From contig NZ_JASFYE010000001.1 in NCBI RefSeq assembly GCF_030055425.1, positions 284,853 through 348,852 of the forward strand: a stretch of 64,000 nucleotides of DNA, read 5' to 3'. Origin of the DNA: Methanothermobacter sp. (lineage in GTDB: Archaea; Methanobacteriota; Methanobacteria; Methanobacteriales; Methanothermobacteraceae). The translations under genes and the position numbers were made by a program. Positions within the stretch are counted from its first letter, which is position 1. Each line of letters starts with the position of its first letter. Under the pieces are notes generated by a model. That model had not been told where the DNA came from. It did not search any database and saw only the letters and a list, made by a program, of their open reading frames with translations. Of this stretch, positions 20,561 through 28,214 are shown in pieces.

Positions 20561-23500
20561 TTATGTGCCCCTGGGACCAAGGTAATATCCAAGTCCAATG
20601 AGGCACAGGAGGGAAATTACTCCAACCACCGCATATACAGGTATCTCACTTTTTTCTTCGCTGATTGATTGATGTTTCTTAACCTCGTAGGCCTTTGCAT
20701 TTGATGGTCCTTTCGCTTCACCGACCTCTGATGATTCTGATTCTGCTGAAACTGAGTCCCTGGCTCCACCATTGGCCGAAGTGGATCTTGCCCTTCCAGC
20801 TGAGCTTCCTGAGGTACCTGAACCTGATGTTGCATCACCTGAATTTCCTGGAGTGGATGGTACATCCGGTGTGGATCCATCAGATGAAGGGGCAAATGCT
20901 GAGCTTTTTGTTGCAGCGTAAAGCCTGTTCTTCACTGCCTCCATAAGGTCAGGGTCAACGTACTGGAGGGTCCACGTAACCATGTTTATATCAATGTGTC
21001 CGCCTGTAACACCATTTGCCTTGACAAGTCTTGCCCATGTATTTGCAACGAACCGAATGTCCCCTTCACTTGCTGACCAGAATCCCCTATAGGCTGCCTT
21101 GAGGAACGTCTCTGAAAGTGCTATCATTGAGTATGCGTTGCTGCCCTCTGAAAGCCACCTGCTAACACCGATCCTGTACCTGTCCTTGAGGTATATGTCA
21201 AGAGCATCGTTCCACATTCTGTCATTGATAACCTCTGGTGCAACAACCTGCCATCCCCACATGTTTGAGAAGAAGTCACTGGAAATTGACCTTGCACCGG
21301 CATAACCTTCCTTCATCATAGCCTCTATCCATTCCCTGTTGAAGAACTTGGTGTGAAGATCCCTCATTATGAACTGTGATGCTGTCTCTACTGTTGATGA
21401 TGCTGGGTCCCTCTGGTTCAGGATGAACATGCCTGGTACGCTACCACTGAGGTACTCCACGGCCAGCCTCATGCCACCGAGGAATTCAAAGTTGTGGTCA
21501 AGGTCAAGTATTCCATGGACATTGGTGGACCTTGAATGGTATGCTGCAGTGACCGCTGAGAGTCGCCTTGTGAATATCGCTGTTCCCACAGATTCCCAGC
21601 TATCCTCTGCATACGCAAAGCCCATGTCACTTATGTAACCCCTTGCAAGTTCCCCTCTGTCATCCCATGTATCAGTCATGTGCACGCCTTCACGGACAGT
21701 CTTTGAACCCCATTCCCCACCAGGGGGTCCGAAAACTCTCTGTATTGCGGCCTTTCCCGCTTCTGTCTCATTGATTCCCATTCCAAGGAGATACCTTACA
21801 TCAGATAACCAGTGCCTTGCTATACTGTTCATCTCAAGTGAATCGTTTCCTGGGGTGAACAGTCCTGCCTCCTTTATAGTCTTAACCGCCGAATCAAGGG
21901 CATTGATTATCTTTGACCTCATAGATGGGCTTTCACTGTTAAGTGACTGTACGATGGTGTTGTATGATGCTGCAAGTGCAACCCTGAATCCACGGTCCAG
22001 GAGAACTGCAACCTGAGGGAATGTCTCCCTGAACACGCCTGTTATTGTTACAACAACATCCACCCTAGGTCTGTTGAGCTGTGAAAGTGGCGTGGCTCTG
22101 ACTCCGATGACGTTTGAGCCTCCTGTTCCCCCATAAACGGGTTCAACGCCGAGTAGCCTCATTATAAATGAGACTGTGGCGCCCTGATCCCTCTGTGTCT
22201 CGGTAGCCCACAGTATCACACCAAGCTGCTCTGGAGTTGTATTGAAGCTTCTGAGGGCATCCTCTGCAAGTGCTCGACCCCTTATCCATGCCGTATTGTA
22301 GGGTATCTTCTGCTGGTCGAGGCCATAAAGGTTTCTTCCCGTTGGAAGTGATGCTGGATTCCTGACGGGATCATCCCCTGTCGCTGCTGCAATGTAACGG
22401 CCGTTAAGGGCATCGAGGAGCGATTTTCTCTCCATCATTGGGCTGATGATTATATTCCGCACATAGGTTTCTGTGAGGTTCAGTGCCTTGAGCTCCGTGG
22501 ATGTAAGGTTTCTACCTGTAGCCACCTGTAGGCTGGCGATTATCTCCTGCAGTGATGTCCCTGCTATTATCTGGAGGATTATCGAATCAAGTGACCCGGG
22601 TAAACCTGACAGGGCTTCCTTTGGTGTTAAATACACTGTTCCATTTACGGGTATCACTCGGTTTCTTGTGAGTATGGTGGTTGCAAGTGCCATGACCCTC
22701 TCAGTGGTCCAGTCGACACCAAATGAATGGAGTCCAAGTGGTGTCACCGTATTCTCAAGTCCCTTCAGGTATTCGTCCAGTGCGTCAGCTGATTCATCCA
22801 TATTCTCCTCATCAATCAAGGAAAGAAGGTTAAGGTTCTCTGCAATCCTCCTTATCTCGGTAAAGACAGCAGGTCTTCCCTCATTTGAGGTCAGCATGTA
22901 CTGACCAATGAGGTTCTTGAGCTGGCTCATCTCCTCTGTCAGTGTATATCCTGTGAATGGCTGTGTCAGGTGCCCTATGACCACTGAAAGTCCACGCCTT
23001 TTTGCATGTATGGCCTCGCCGACTCCATCCATGTTGTAAATGTATATGGCAGGTACATTGCCAATGCAGATGTCAGGATAATCTGAACCTGAAAGTGCTA
23101 TGTCCTTTCTGGGAAGCCACTCATATGTTCCATGCTGCCCAAGGTGAATTATTGCGCTTGCATTGATCCTTGTCTGCAGGTAGGCGTAGAATGCAAGGTA
23201 CTGATATGTTGGCGGTATAACCTGGCTGTGGTAGAGCATTGAAGCATCCTCATAGCCTCTCATTGGTTGTGGTCCAATGTAAACTTTACCGAAGCTTATT
23301 ATCGGTAGCACGAAGTACTTTTTTCCGCCTCTTTCAATCACCATTAAATCGCCGGGCGGCTTTCCCCAGCCACAGAGCCCTGGTATCTTCATTTCAAGGA
23401 ATTCTGACTTTGCTCTGCGAAACTCTGCCCATCTGTCCTCACAGTTAACTATCCCCTGAAGTGCACTGTAGGCCCTTTCAAGGAGTTCAAGTGCCCTTTC

Positions 23501-25282
23501 CCTCTGCGTTAGGTTCAGGTAGTTACCCATCTCCCTTATAGCTGATTCAATGCCCTTCTTCCATTCTGTAAGTGTATGTGTAATTAGCTTGTTGAGTTCA
23601 ATAGTTCTCTTGCTGAGTGGAATGGTATATATCCTGGATGCAAGTACCTCAATGTAGCCAAGGGGTCCCTCCTCCATTTCCTTCCTGGTTATATCCGGTA
23701 GTTCCATGAACCATTCCATGAATTCAGATACATCCCAGAGAACCATCCCTGCTGATGCATTCTCAAGTTCACCTGCAAGTTCAAGGTTTCTTCCCCGCCC
23801 CAGCATGGTGGCTATGAGTTCATCAACGTTTGCTGGTACCTCCAGCGTGTAACCGTTTTCCTTAAGTAGCCTGAGGATGCTGAGTATTGATTCAGGGCCG
23901 TTTAGAGAGTTGCCCCCTGCAAGGTTTTCCCTGCCAGGTGGATAGTTGTAGTAGACAAGTGCAACTATTTTTTCAGTGTTATTCATGTATCGAAGTTTCA
24001 GCCAGTTTGAAATCCTCTCACATATTCTTATGAGCCTCTCTGGTATGACATCAGCGACAACCATCTCAAGTCCGGTTACCGGATCCACTGATGTTTTCAT
24101 TGTTGCAATGAGTATCTGTTCAATGTGGCCCTGGGTCTCCTCGATTGCCATCTCAGATCCGAAACTGTAGTCCAAGCCCTGCTGTGAGATCTGCCAGTAA
24201 TCAGTGGTGAGGTAACCGCTTGACCAGACCTGTAGGGGTGAAAACACAGGTACCCCAAAACTTGAGAGGAAGCTAGTTCCATTTGCCTGGCCCATACTTC
24301 CACCGATGAGCCATGCCAGGTTGATTATGGCATCGACCCTTGAGGTGTTCGCTGTTCGATCAATGAAGTATTCATTGATTGCCCTTATAACGTTGAGGCC
24401 GTTTGCGGGGTTACCCTCTGCAACCACGGGTATCGTGTTTATGCCTCTGCTTTCAAGTTCAGTCACAAGTGCGTCCAGAATGTTGCTATCACCCCTTCCA
24501 AGGGTTACATGTCTGTAGGCGATTATTCCAACGGTGGGTCTCCCAGGCTTAACATATGATGAGTAGCTGGCAAAATTTTGGTACTCGGTTCCGTTTCTGT
24601 ATATGACATATGGCTTGGTTGACACTGGTGGTCTGTATGTGAAGCCCCCATCAGGGTACCTGAGGGCAAGGAAGTACATTAAAAGATCCCTTGAAAGGTA
24701 CCTGTACGCCTCAATGTAATTCGCCGCTGCAGGGTACTGGAGTTTCACCTCATCTATCAGGGATGAATTTGCAGTGTAACCCCTGAGCTGCTGGTACATC
24801 AGCTGCATCTGGACATCAGTAAGTGGTTCTTCACTCTGTGATACAAAACGGGTGCCGCCAATATTTGTTATCCTGATGAGCGGAACGTACCATGTGGGCA
24901 TTCCCATGACAACCACTGTCTTGTTGTTCATCCTCCCTTCAGCGTGTAACTCCAGGATACGATCTGAAACTGGACCGCCCTCAATGTTATCCAGGTATAT
25001 GATGTCAGCCCAATCAATGAGTTCAGGGATCTCTGTGAGATTGTTGCCTGCCTGGCTCACAGATCTCGCCTTAAACTTTATGTGGGGGTAATCGGCCGAG
25101 ATGTTATGCATCACCTTTACCATCTGACTGGTTGTCCTGTCTGTTCCTATTACAAGGAAATTTATCTGATCTCCTGTGGTGTTTGAGGAGTTGCTGCTTG
25201 CTGAAACACCTCCAATCAATGTTAAAATTACTGAAATCAGTAGAAATGCTGCTATTATTCCCTGTTTTCTAATTACATTCAC
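20561..25282 (-). CDS. Exported, membrane-anchored CobN/magnesium-chelatase-like giant protein 2
   Basis: This is about 1573 residues and a paralogue of the gene at 10519-15519: signal peptide (VIRKQGIIAAFLLISVILTL), CobN/ChlH domain, Ser/Gly-rich linker, and a C-terminal helix (YAVVGVISLLCLIGLGYYLG). CobN motifs include LCGWGKPPGD, IGPQPMRGYE, LYHSQVIPP, IIHLGQHGTYEWLPRKD and GVGEAIHAKRRG. It lacks the SdrD/Cna-B-like domain and the CCDCSCGN cluster of paralogue 1, which reads GHIDINM here. The start is unusual: the only classical codon, GTG 25282, lies inside the GGAGGTGA binding site, and at the position of the paralogue's ATG there is GTA (25276). A T6 run follows the stop. Role: surface metal or tetrapyrrole binding (inference). 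Confidence 0.88.
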   Translation of the reverse strand: MNVIRKQGIIAAFLLISVILTLIGGVSASSNSSNTTGDQINFLVIGTDRTTSQMVKVMHNISADYPHIKFKARSVSQAGNNLTEIPELIDWADIIYLDNIEGGPVSDRILELHAEGRMNNKTVVVMGMPTWYVPLIRITNIGGTRFVSQSEEPLTDVQMQLMYQQLRGYTANSSLIDEVKLQYPAAANYIEAYRYLSRDLLMYFLALRYPDGGFTYRPPVSTKPYVIYRNGTEYQNFASYSSYVKPGRPTVGIIAYRHVTLGRGDSNILDALVTELESRGINTIPVVAEGNPANGLNVIRAINEYFIDRTANTSRVDAIINLAWLIGGSMGQANGTSFLSSFGVPVFSPLQVWSSGYLTTDYWQISQQGLDYSFGSEMAIEETQGHIEQILIATMKTSVDPVTGLEMVVADVIPERLIRICERISNWLKLRYMNNTEKIVALVYYNYPPGRENLAGGNSLNGPESILSILRLLKENGYTLEVPANVDELIATMLGRGRNLELAGELENASAGMVLWDVSEFMEWFMELPDITRKEMEEGPLGYIEVLASRIYTIPLSKRTIELNKLITHTLTEWKKGIESAIREMGNYLNLTQRERALELLERAYSALQGIVNCEDRWAEFRRAKSEFLEMKIPGLCGWGKPPGDLMVIERGGKKYFVLPIISFGKVYIGPQPMRGYEDASMLYHSQVIPPTYQYLAFYAYLQTRINASAIIHLGQHGTYEWLPRKDIALSGSDYPDICIGNVPAIYIYNMDGVGEAIHAKRRGLSVVIGHLTQPFTGYTLTEEMSQLKNLIGQYMLTSNEGRPAVFTEIRRIAENLNLLSLIDEENMDESADALDEYLKGLENTVTPLGLHSFGVDWTTERVMALATTILTRNRVIPVNGTVYLTPKEALSGLPGSLDSIILQIIAGTSLQEIIASLQVATGRNLTSTELKALNLTETYVRNIIISPMMERKSLLDALNGRYIAAATGDDPVRNPASLPTGRNLYGLDQQKIPYNTAWIRGRALAEDALRSFNTTPEQLGVILWATETQRDQGATVSFIMRLLGVEPVYGGTGGSNVIGVRATPLSQLNRPRVDVVVTITGVFRETFPQVAVLLDRGFRVALAASYNTIVQSLNSESPSMRSKIINALDSAVKTIKEAGLFTPGNDSLEMNSIARHWLSDVRYLLGMGINETEAGKAAIQRVFGPPGGEWGSKTVREGVHMTDTWDDRGELARGYISDMGFAYAEDSWESVGTAIFTRRLSAVTAAYHSRSTNVHGILDLDHNFEFLGGMRLAVEYLSGSVPGMFILNQRDPASSTVETASQFIMRDLHTKFFNREWIEAMMKEGYAGARSISSDFFSNMWGWQVVAPEVINDRMWNDALDIYLKDRYRIGVSRWLSEGSNAYSMIALSETFLKAAYRGFWSASEGDIRFVANTWARLVKANGVTGGHIDINMVTWTLQYVDPDLMEAVKNRLYAATKSSAFAPSSDGSTPDVPSTPGNSGDATSGSGTSGSSAGRARSTSANGGARDSVSAESESSEVGEAKGPSNAKAYEVKKHQSISEEKSEIPVYAVVGVISLLCLIGLGYYLGPRGT

Positions 25283-25461
25283 CTCCTATCATTTTAATTA
25301 CAGGACAACTTTGGTAGAACAACCACTTAAATCTTATACACTTGAAATAAAGTAATAAAAATAATGGAATAAAATACAATTTAATAATACTATAATTCCT
25401 GATAGCATATAATGATGTTTTTATAGTCCTCCCACCTAATATCACTCCGGGAGTGTTAAAC

Positions 25462-26913
25462 ATGAAGGTTCCAAGATGCATGAGTACACAGCATCCAGAC
25501 AACGTGAACCCGCCGTTCTTTGCAGCAGAACCTGAACTCGGTGGTGAAGATGAAATCAGGGAGGCCTACTATGTCTTCTCACACCTCGGCTGTGATGAAC
25601 AGATGTGGGACTGTGAGGGCAAGGAGGTTGACAACTACGTCGTGAAGAAGCTCCTCACAAAGTACCAGGCCTTCTTCCAGGACCATGTGCTGGGGGAGGA
25701 CCTCAGGTTAACCCTCAGGGTCCCCAACCCCACTGTGGAGAGGGCCGAGGCCAAGATACTCCTGGAGACCCTTGAGAGCATACCAAGATCCTATGACACC
25801 GCAAGCCTCTTCTATGGAATGGACACACACCCTGTATTCGAGGTCATACTGCCAATGACCTCCTCCAGCAGCTGCCTCAACAGGATCCACAGCTACTACC
25901 GGGACTTTGTCAAGGGAAAGGAGAAGCTGCAGCTCGCAGATGGTGTAACCGTCAAGGAGTGGATCGGGGAGTTCAGGCCCGATGAGATCAATGTTATACC
26001 CCTCTTCGAGGACTATGAGGGGATGCTCAACGCATCCCGTATAACAGGCGATTACCTCGATGGTAAGGACCTCACAGGGCAGAGGGTCTTCCTTGCAAGG
26101 TCCGACCCGGCAATGAACTACGGTATGGTCTCAGCCACCATACTCAACAGGATAGCCCTCAGAGACTTCAGGGCCCTTGAGGAGGAGAGTGGGGTTAAAC
26201 TCTACCCCATCATAGGTATGGGTTCAGCCCCGTTCAGGGGAAACCTCAGGCCAGATAACGTGAGGGACGTTACAGGGGAATACAGCGGGGCATACACATT
26301 CACTGTCCAGTCCTCCTTCAAGTACGACCATGAACCCTCAGAGGTCATAGGGGGGATAAGGGAGCTGAGGTCAGCAAAACCAGGCAGGGCATCTGAGATT
26401 GACACCGACCGTGCCCTTGAGATAATCTCAGCCTACTGCAGGGAGTACCGGAGGCAGGTCATGGACCTCGTGGATATCATAAACAGGGTTGCAAGGTACG
26501 TCCCGGGCAGAAGGAAGAGGAAGCTCCACATCGGACTCTTTGGATATGCCAGGAGCATGGGTAACGTTTCACTTCCAAGGGCAATAACATTCACCGCGGC
26601 CCTCTACTCCCTGGGGGTTCCCCCTGAGCTTCTGGGCTTCAATGCACTGTCCTCTGAGGACCTTGAATTCATAGAGGATGTCTACCCTGGCCTCAGGCGT
26701 GACCTTGGAGATGCTATGAGGTACGCCAACCCTGACTCACCATTCCTCAGCCCTGAGGTTAAATCCGCGGTTGAGGAGTACATTGAACCTGAATATGACG
26801 AGGACCACCGCAGGGTCACCGATGAAATCATAAGGGCCCTCCGGGTTAACAGGACCGCCAACCTCCAGGAACTCATACTTGAGGCTGCAAGCCAGAGGAG
26901 GTTCCTGGGGTAA
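25462..26913 (+). CDS. ppcA: Archaeal-type phosphoenolpyruvate carboxylase
   Basis: This is a 483-residue enzyme that carboxylates PEP to oxaloacetate, feeding the partial reductive TCA branch of methanogens. The archaeal PEPC family shows in the start MKVPRCMSTQHPDN, in GMGSAPFRGNLRPDN (binding loop), in FGYARSMGNVSLPRAITF, and in the length, about half that of bacterial PEPC. ATG 25462 is chosen because CGGGAG at 25448-25453 is correctly spaced; GTG 25453 would lie in this site. A TATA-like TTTTTATAG is upstream near 25417. Two T-runs, each part of a direct repeat, follow the stop. Confidence 0.93.
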   Translation: MKVPRCMSTQHPDNVNPPFFAAEPELGGEDEIREAYYVFSHLGCDEQMWDCEGKEVDNYVVKKLLTKYQAFFQDHVLGEDLRLTLRVPNPTVERAEAKILLETLESIPRSYDTASLFYGMDTHPVFEVILPMTSSSSCLNRIHSYYRDFVKGKEKLQLADGVTVKEWIGEFRPDEINVIPLFEDYEGMLNASRITGDYLDGKDLTGQRVFLARSDPAMNYGMVSATILNRIALRDFRALEEESGVKLYPIIGMGSAPFRGNLRPDNVRDVTGEYSGAYTFTVQSSFKYDHEPSEVIGGIRELRSAKPGRASEIDTDRALEIISAYCREYRRQVMDLVDIINRVARYVPGRRKRKLHIGLFGYARSMGNVSLPRAITFTAALYSLGVPPELLGFNALSSEDLEFIEDVYPGLRRDLGDAMRYANPDSPFLSPEVKSAVEEYIEPEYDEDHRRVTDEIIRALRVNRTANLQELILEAASQRRFLG

Positions 26914-26922
26914 CCCCCCTCT

Positions 26923-27011
26923 TTTTCAACCCCACGTTACAAAAATATTGAAATAAAGGTTCTGGAACAAATTCCTCCTTTTCAACCCCACGTTACAAAA
27001 TATTAAAATAA
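26923..27011. repeat. Direct repeat of about 33 bp, two copies, downstream of ppcA
   Basis: The copies at about 26923-26956 and 26979-27011 share TTTTCAACCCCACGTTACAAAA and then TATTxAAATAA, with one or two differences and a 56-bp period. Each begins with a T-run after C/T-rich sequence. They may be duplicated terminators of ppcA or protein-binding sites in front of the heliorhodopsin gene. Confidence 0.8.
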
Positions 27012-27044: not shown

Positions 27045-27869
27045 ATGGACAATGTTGAAAGACTTAAAATGATTGAGAAGTCCCCTATAAGCTTTGAGGG
27101 ACTCCGTAAACTGAACATTGCGGCCGGGACACTGCACCTCCTGCAGGGTCTCCTGATGGTTGCTCTGGGCTACCTTCTGACCTGGGACAGGGACATATAC
27201 ACGTTCTACCTGAAGTTCAAGGTGATATCCCTGAACCCGCCGTCCTTCCAGGTACTCCCGAACCCGGAGGTGGCTTTCACTGTGAGCTACCTCGGGGTGA
27301 TACTTGCATCGTTTCTGCTGATCTCTGCGGTGGCACACTTCACAATAGCCTTCCTGAGGAATGAGAGTTACGTTGAGAACCTCAGGAGGGGGATGAACCC
27401 CTACCGCTGGTACGAGTATGCGTTCTCCAGTTCAATAATGATCGTCATACTGGCAACCTTTGTGGGTGTGTGGGACCTCTGGTCACTTGTGATGATATTT
27501 GTGCTGAATGCCTCAATGATAATGTTCGGTTATCTCATGGAGAAAATCAACCAGTACACCGAGAAGATCGACTGGTCACCCTACCTGCTTGGCTGTATTT
27601 CCGGTTTCACGCCCTGGATCGTCATTGCAGCATACTTTGTGGCGGCCCTTGGTTCATCAGAGACCCAGCCACCTGACTTCGTGTACCTCGCACTCCTCCT
27701 CTACTTTGTGATGTTCAACACCTTCTCCATCAACATGCTGCTCCAGTATAAGGGTGTCGGTAAGTGGAGGGACTACCTCTACGGTGAGCGGGTGTACATC
27801 ATACTGAGCCTCGTTGCCAAGACCATACTGGCCTGGCTGGTATTCATAGGGGTCTTCTCACCATTCTAA
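27045..27869 (+). CDS. Heliorhodopsin (seven-helix retinal protein family)
   Basis: This is a 274-residue protein with seven hydrophobic helices. Compared from memory with heliorhodopsin 48C12 it matches helix by helix: TLHLLQ (His31), AHFTIA (His98), YRWYEYAFSSSIMIVILA (Arg121, counterion Glu124), NASMIMFGYLMEK, GCISGFTPWI, FVYLALLLY, LLQYKGVGKWRDYL, and YIILSLVAKTILAW with Lys259 in the position of the retinal Schiff-base lysine. Nothing essential is missing. In other organisms heliorhodopsins bind retinal, have slow photocycles and are inverted in the membrane. GGGGGTT at 27033-27039 precedes ATG 27045. No retinal synthesis gene is in the window. The role in a methanogen is unknown. Confidence 0.93.
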   Translation: MDNVERLKMIEKSPISFEGLRKLNIAAGTLHLLQGLLMVALGYLLTWDRDIYTFYLKFKVISLNPPSFQVLPNPEVAFTVSYLGVILASFLLISAVAHFTIAFLRNESYVENLRRGMNPYRWYEYAFSSSIMIVILATFVGVWDLWSLVMIFVLNASMIMFGYLMEKINQYTEKIDWSPYLLGCISGFTPWIVIAAYFVAALGSSETQPPDFVYLALLLYFVMFNTFSINMLLQYKGVGKWRDYLYGERVYIILSLVAKTILAWLVFIGVFSPF

Positions 27870-27978: not shown

Positions 27979-28050
27979 AGTCCCGTGGGGTAATGGCAAT
28001 CCTGATGGACTCTGGATCCATCGATAGCGGTTCGACTCCGCTCGGGACTA
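27979..28050 (+). tRNA. tRNA-Gln (anticodon CUG)
   Basis: This 72-nt gene folds as a cloverleaf: acceptor AGTCCCG with CGGGACT, the D arm with GGTAATGGC, anticodon stem ATGGA/TCCAT around loop CTCTGGA, and T stem AGCGG/CCGCT with loop TTCGACT. The loop gives anticodon CTG. The A1-U72 pair is typical of archaeal tRNA-Gln, which is charged through Glu-tRNA amidation by GatDE. CCA is not encoded. Confidence 0.96.
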
Positions 28051-28116
28051 TCCCCCCAAAACCCCCTTTTTATCGAAACCTATTTATTATGAACCTCACC
28101 ACCTATTAACTGTCAT

Positions 28117-28189
<73 letters not shown>

Positions 28190-28214
28190 CAAATCAACTT
28201 ATTCTGTGTCTAGA

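Follow-up and report, generated by a model that had tools for sequence, protein, structure and literature searches.

A canonical heliorhodopsin in Methanothermobacter and the photolyase, carotenoid and SOUL genes that keep it company in Methanobacteriales

The window, that is the whole stretch of 64,000 nucleotides of a Methanothermobacter genome that was analysed, harbours a gene for a heliorhodopsin of 274 amino acids which begins with an ATG start codon and was assigned by profiles, solved relatives and an AF2 model. Heliorhodopsins are a family of membrane proteins that sense light. The gene is situated between an upstream neighbour encoding PEP carboxylase and two downstream tRNA genes, and is preceded by two direct repeats and a candidate promoter element:

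25453..26913, forward strand: gene for an archaeal-type PEP carboxylase (PF14010), the upstream neighbour in the genus
26922..26948, forward strand: direct repeat, copy 1 (0 matches in 100 shuffles)
26978..27004, forward strand: direct repeat, copy 2 (0 matches in 100 shuffles)
27003..27010, forward strand: putative TATA-like box TTAAAATA, 34 bases 5' of the ATG
27045..27869, forward strand: heliorhodopsin gene
27979..28050, forward strand: tRNA-Gln (CTG), downstream neighbour outside the heliorhodopsin system
28116..28190, forward strand: tRNA-Gln (TTG), downstream neighbour outside the heliorhodopsin system

A preliminary description of this DNA had recognised a heliorhodopsin with K259 as Schiff-base lysine and E124 as counterion, and the family as well as both residues have been confirmed. 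The protein scores 317.2 bits against PF18761 (cut-off 26.7) and 349.6 bits against NF038020, 'heliorhodopsin HeR' (cut-off 100); the six solved relatives found are all named heliorhodopsin, with TaHeR (6is6) as the best match (E 2.8e-57). Equally, with the AF2 model (mean pLDDT 81.5), Foldseek at E <= 0.001 retrieved ten matches, all of them heliorhodopsins and 7u55, 7clj and 6is6 among them, and the model displays the seven-helix fold with a long beta ECL1 loop (strands 49-63 and 66-80). In the alignment with the solved heliorhodopsins, K259 within LSLVAKTILAW coincides with their lysine and, together with S255, constitutes the SxxxK motif of helix 7, while E124 within RWYEYAFSSS coincides with their glutamate. 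The aromatic residues sandwiching the retinal, reported as Y108 and F206 in 48C12 (PMC6951262), are Y125 and F224 here. E124, Y125, F224 and K259 are invariant throughout 19 Methanobacteriales rows, representing 18 genomes as L048 duplicates G140, and 71 other rows. The colour-tuning positions, by our own mapping from the alignment with the solved heliorhodopsins, are occupied by M165, M231 and A258, a combination of M, M and A reported for heliorhodopsins with maxima below 540 nm (PMC7807009), and an absorption maximum below about 540 nm is predicted from these residues. Expressed heliorhodopsins from the anaerobes Thermococcus sp. 2319x1, Mesotoga and Dehalogenimonas are described in the same source to have taken up retinal, at 530-539 nm (PMC7807009). 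The gene product is a canonical, TaHeR-like heliorhodopsin with an intact retinal site and as such an ordinary member of the family; the novelty is the company that it keeps in methanogens.

The two direct repeats had been put forward as possible regulatory elements. They exist, as judged by the shuffles, but are not conserved beyond the own genome. The 14-base repeat core is present in one of 29 loci, which is the locus of the window itself, and the region 5' of the heliorhodopsin gene scarcely aligns within the genus (8 genomes), for which reasons a conserved operator was rejected. The best-kept upstream part in the alignment of the 8 genomes is the TATA-like box, with a variant in G149. Scans near the heliorhodopsin gene with models unsuited to an archaeon gave one sigma-70 promoter-like site, as compared to 1.7 in shuffles, and no terminator. 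The PEP carboxylase gene presumably does not belong to the heliorhodopsin system. Heliorhodopsin has reportedly been found paired with glutamine synthetase (PMC9529153); a glutamine link via the two tRNA-Gln genes was considered and rejected, as this neighbourhood is limited to the genus and other genera differ. On the reverse strand, the window encodes at 20561-25282 a CobN/Mg-chelatase-like protein of 1573 amino acids, which, judged by eye, seems to start with a signal sequence and to end in a membrane anchor and is therefore probably located at the cell surface.

The methanogen host is borne out. Occurrence of the gene is not a one-strain oddity, as in the profile search PF18761 matched 19 of the 150 genomes of the order, 18 of them with an intact gene. 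Intact heliorhodopsin genes are present in all 8 genomes of the genus, in three of four genomes of family f2 and, within family f3, in 7 genomes that belong to 5 genera. The preliminary description had left undecided whether methanogen members had been reported before; they are annotated in public databases. A protein search gave 3868 homologues and, among the 120 matches listed, annotated heliorhodopsins are found in Methanobacterium oryzae, M. petrolearium and Ca. Methanosuratincola. Species genomes were scanned as well and provided 325 relatives; the 79 loci retained from these span Methanobacteriaceae, Methanomethylicia, Bathyarchaeota, Thorarchaeota, Lokiarchaeota, Hodarchaeota and Chloroflexi and include also one Thermococcales and one Methanomassiliicoccales. 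The full-text literature, which mostly does not cover subscription papers, contained no co-mention of heliorhodopsin and Methanothermobacter, and co-mentioned heliorhodopsin and Methanobacteri- in one paper, via a reference entry. Heliorhodopsin and methanogen occur together in 11 papers, and heliorhodopsin and the word SOUL in one, an optogenetics review.

A tree with archaeal members, as had been suggested at the outset, placed the methanogen proteins among Bathyarchaeia. In this tree of 83 rows, with a midpoint root for drawing only, 12 Methanobacteriales rows, three Methanomethylicia and one Bathyarchaeota record constitute one clade (support 100/99); its union with a Thermoproteota record has a support of 99/96. 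Duplicates (L044, L046, L051, L071) and truncated sequences (L078, L090, L091) were omitted from the tree; the order genomes G148, G139, G146, G008, G141, G002 and G004 were included in the dN/dS comparison and the residue alignment instead. The natural reading of the topology would be an exchange of heliorhodopsin between anaerobic archaea. Within the genus, dN/dS of the gene ranges from 0.018 to 0.096 (six pairs); the gene is under purifying selection and, because of these low values, functional. Equally, the pairs G002/G003, G138/G139 and G138/G140 show values of 0.033-0.071; the pair G002/G004 gave 0.67, yet at a dS of merely 0.017, and two pairs were saturated. On the other hand, the heliorhodopsin gene of G001 has been ruined by stops and frame breaks, with 83% nucleotide identity to G002 across the aligned stretch.

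A dark-living methanogen had been considered in the preliminary description to have no obvious use for light. This notion is contradicted by the own genome, which contains a class II CPD photolyase gene, a putative acyclic C50 carotenoid gene set and a SOUL gene, and by the confinement of all three within the order to heliorhodopsin-bearing genomes. Photolyase (PF00875, matching 8 of 14 control genomes) was found in 16 of the 150 order genomes, namely in all 8 genomes of the genus, in G002-G004 and in G137-G141, and the same 16 genomes were recovered upon repetition of the search on the 151 genomes of the whole phylum set. All 16 possess an intact heliorhodopsin gene, and photolyase occurs in none of the 131 genomes without a heliorhodopsin gene. 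The association, with a Fisher p of 1e-19 when phylogeny is ignored and of 0.0018 on genera when their kinship is ignored (1e-14 to 1e-19 across photolyase, SOUL and carotenoid markers, phylogeny ignored), covers light-related families only and may rest on few independent losses. Intact heliorhodopsin without a photolyase match is seen in G008 (490 contigs) and G142 (200 contigs). A closer tie of heliorhodopsin to photolyase than to pigment or SOUL is indicated best by the pattern in family f2, where G002-G004 have kept heliorhodopsin and photolyase while SOUL and carotenoid markers were not found, and G001 with its broken heliorhodopsin gene gave no photolyase match, an absence which is not firm in a draft genome that is 94% complete in 170 contigs.

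The photolyase match of the own genome (G000:C1:282816-283286) scores 606.7 against TIGR00591 (cut-off 550.05), and all three photolyases scanned exceed this cut-off and are thus assigned to class II CPD photolyases by what is a 'superfamily' model. The gene resides on the same contig as the heliorhodopsin gene and ends about 0.8 kb before the start of the window. Throughout the 8 genomes of the genus both matches lie on one contig with a match-to-match distance of 23-43 kb, which is 29.1 kb in the own genome. The two genes do not share an operon, being about 28 kb apart in the own genome, and a photolyase gene adjoining heliorhodopsin in other genomes was sought in the flanks of the 79 loci and rejected (0/79). 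Within these loci, in raw counts without a random-neighbourhood baseline and in part inflated by close relatives, the UV endonuclease UvdE is located near heliorhodopsin in 10 (one a partial match), with a distance of 9 bp on the same strand in L098; a YbgA-like desulfurase gene, situated 5' of photolyase in the own genome, is found in six, and a Pyridox_ox_2 protein (PF12900) in 14. The neighbour clustering itself took 85 loci, with several duplicates and with near-identical Lokiarchaeal loci inflating it; the counts reported refer to the 79 loci. As a separate observation, no other small protein recurs as frequently beside archaeal heliorhodopsins as the PF12900 pyridoxamine-phosphate-oxidase-like protein, whose gene often lies no more than 100 bp away (e.g. 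L063, 8883-9359).

These distributions bear on the proposal that the protein is a light-independent apo-opsin whose role is structural or concerns a lipid or ligand, with the photolyase link a consequence of shared ancestry. A habitat that is likely dark, the failure to find retinal synthesis and a co-occurrence test that ignores phylogeny would all be compatible with such an apo-opsin, but the lysine and the counterion, which are required for a chromophore, are invariant in the 18 order genomes, and breakage of the gene in G001 coincides with an absent photolyase, so that this proposal is considered distinctly unlikely. The light-independent role mentioned in the preliminary description has accordingly become less likely, as photolyase, C50 and SOUL genes occur in the order only together with the heliorhodopsin gene.

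With respect to the chromophore, the earlier statement that retinal synthesis is not known agrees with the searches performed. Blh (PF15461) was over cut-off in none of the 150 order genomes and in none of 50 genomes from other groups that carry heliorhodopsin, where one match fell below, with no control genome matching; RPE65 (PF03055) was not found in the own genome, the sole genome searched (2 of 14 controls match), and the CarR/CrtYcd-type lycopene cyclase domain (TIGR03462), the type covered without the CrtY/CrtL and CruA families, was not found in any of the 150 order genomes (3 of 14 controls match). Retinal is therefore probably scavenged from outside. Equally, as the carotene cleavage enzymes Blh and RPE65 use oxygen, scavenging would be the simplest way for a strict anaerobe.

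Candidate genes for carotenoids as such are present. The squalene/phytoene synthase family (PF00494) is found in 13 of the 150 genomes; these 13 all possess heliorhodopsin and also exceed the cut-off for CruF (TIGR03460), of which G140 gives a weak further match; the Fisher p of these carotenoid markers against heliorhodopsin is 0.0018 on genera with their kinship ignored. In the own genome a putative bacterioruberin-type cluster (L023, 5144-9365; G000:C6, about 63.1-67.4 kb) combines CruF (TIGR03460 237.6, cut-off 154.7), a LyeJ-like UbiA relative (NF009516 391.6, cut-off 205; a model named only prenyltransferase, which we take to be lycopene elongase), the PF00494 family gene (182.6, below every NCBIfam phytoene synthase cut-off) and CrtI/CrtID (NF058655 678.6, cut-off 640). 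Outside the carotenoid cluster lies another CruF-like gene with a weaker match (L040, 7095-7928; G008, G138-G141), which encodes a membrane protein of about 277 amino acids and beside which no cleavage enzyme was recognised by eye. With this gene set in the own genome, with two of its markers restricted to 13 heliorhodopsin-bearing genomes and with no CarR-type lycopene cyclase, it can be imagined that the cell cleaves its own C40/C50 carotenoids and that the resulting acyclic apo-carotenal, or such a carotenoid bound as an antenna, replaces scavenged retinal. However, G002-G004 possess intact heliorhodopsin without the carotenoid markers, no cleavage enzyme was found and the retinal site is the same as in retinal-binding heliorhodopsins; such a replacement is regarded as highly improbable.

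The haem-binding family SOUL (PF04832) was detected in 15 of the 150 genomes, 14 of them over cut-off; all 15, the own genome included, have a heliorhodopsin gene (Fisher p = 0.0003 on genera, their kinship ignored). In 11 of the 79 loci, of which four are from Methanobacteriaceae and the other seven are Bathyarchaeia-type, SOUL is situated near heliorhodopsin in a divergent, an upstream co-directional or a downstream co-directional arrangement. An intact SOUL gene adjoins heliorhodopsin on the opposite strand in G008, G138 and G141, while in G139 and G140 this adjoining copy is either broken or fragmentary, and in G142 it contains a stop. In the genus, SOUL resides away from heliorhodopsin in a block of genes for a pseudomurein-binding-repeat protein, a SagB-like nitroreductase, SOUL and a radical SAM protein (TIGR04083); G138 has the same block, with the equivalence of the nitroreductase judged by eye, and with heliorhodopsin between the SOUL and the radical SAM gene. 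The block as such, with its peptide-modifying TIGR04083 member, is an observation common to the genus and G138 (L159, 4882-8756, and L032, 691-10059). Methionine sulfoxide reductase is found near heliorhodopsin in six of the 79 loci, and TspO/MBR genes have been noticed in the heliorhodopsin neighbourhood of G138 (L032, 13211-13696) and beside the desulfurase-photolyase pair of G137 (L155, 52-423).

The chief rival to a role in DNA repair arises from these data, namely that heliorhodopsin is a light sensor for photo-oxidative (tetrapyrrole) stress, acting via SOUL without touching photolyase, which would just share the need for light. The restriction of SOUL to genomes with a heliorhodopsin gene, its proximity in several arrangements, a nitroreductase-SOUL-radical SAM block that is kept in the genus without heliorhodopsin and has heliorhodopsin inside in G138, and the nearby methionine sulfoxide reductase and TspO/MBR genes would fit a stress sensor. 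On the other hand, three f2 genomes with intact heliorhodopsin give no SOUL match, the adjoining SOUL copy is damaged in three genomes and the neighbour counts come without a random-neighbour baseline. Altogether this sensor is judged to be unlikely.

The reading that is tentatively preferred, with a probability approaching but not reaching an even chance, is that heliorhodopsin serves as a light-dependent helper of the class II CPD photolyase with retinal taken up from outside. This role is proposed because TfHeR of Trichococcus flocculiformis has been reported to bind class II CPD photolyase with a dissociation constant of about 22 micromolar, to raise photolyase repair about 3-fold and to extend repair to green light (PMC9769723), because genes for photolyase, UvdE and carotenoids adjoin the Znf-HeRs of Thermoplasmatales (Bulzu 2021, PMC8612252) and because the same company is found here by co-occurrence. 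Absorbed light would isomerise the retinal, presumably acquired by uptake, which would be bound on K259; heliorhodopsin would change its shape on the cytoplasmic side, this side might bind or tune the photolyase and UV damage would be mended once the cell reaches light. As every photolyase genome among the 150 has also heliorhodopsin, these supposedly dark-living methanogens likely respond to light. A wider photobiology of methanogens, in which heliorhodopsin, class II photolyase, the acyclic C50 pathway and SOUL would be one light-response set gained and lost together, and SOUL a new signalling partner that reads the light signal of heliorhodopsin via a bound tetrapyrrole, is deemed unlikely.

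Heliorhodopsins are widespread, mostly without a known job, and with photolyase assistance as a candidate their function can here be tested in organisms that can be cultivated. Strict anaerobes without a recognised retinal pathway keep an intact retinal site alongside a gene for light-driven DNA repair. If true, some methanogens cope with light and may produce bacterioruberin-like pigments; in a 2022 review, methanogens are listed as unstudied for carotenoids (PMC9410494).

Among known systems, TaHeR of the Thermoplasmatales archaeon SG8-52-1 (6is6, 7u55) shares family and fold with the methanogen protein, the two being about 42% identical as aligned by Foldseek, with the counterion and the Schiff-base lysine aligned; its structure has been solved with retinal, whereas the methanogen protein is known from sequence and model and resides in another genome setting. 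Bathyarchaeota heliorhodopsins are the nearest larger clade in the tree, many members having 65-75% identity; light sensing with exogenous retinal analogues has been proposed for them in an account which, in its available part, does not deal with methanogen heliorhodopsins (PMC7110647). The haloarchaeal bacterioruberin pathway with LyeJ, CrtD and CruF (PMC9410494) is resembled by the CruF, CrtI/CrtID and UbiA relatives above cut-offs, the difference being that the host here is a methanogen and the pathway is predicted from its genes. The Znf-HeRs are likewise accompanied by genes for UV repair and carotenoids, while the methanogen heliorhodopsin is devoid of an N-terminal zinc ribbon and its hosts are strict anaerobes; SOUL and methanogens are not named in the accessible portion of that account (PMC8612252). 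Finally, like Trichococcus with TfHeR, the methanogen combines heliorhodopsin and class II photolyase in one genome (PMC9769723), yet while both genes belong to one operon in Trichococcus, about 28 kb separate those of the methanogen, and their link is that they co-occur in a series of genomes.
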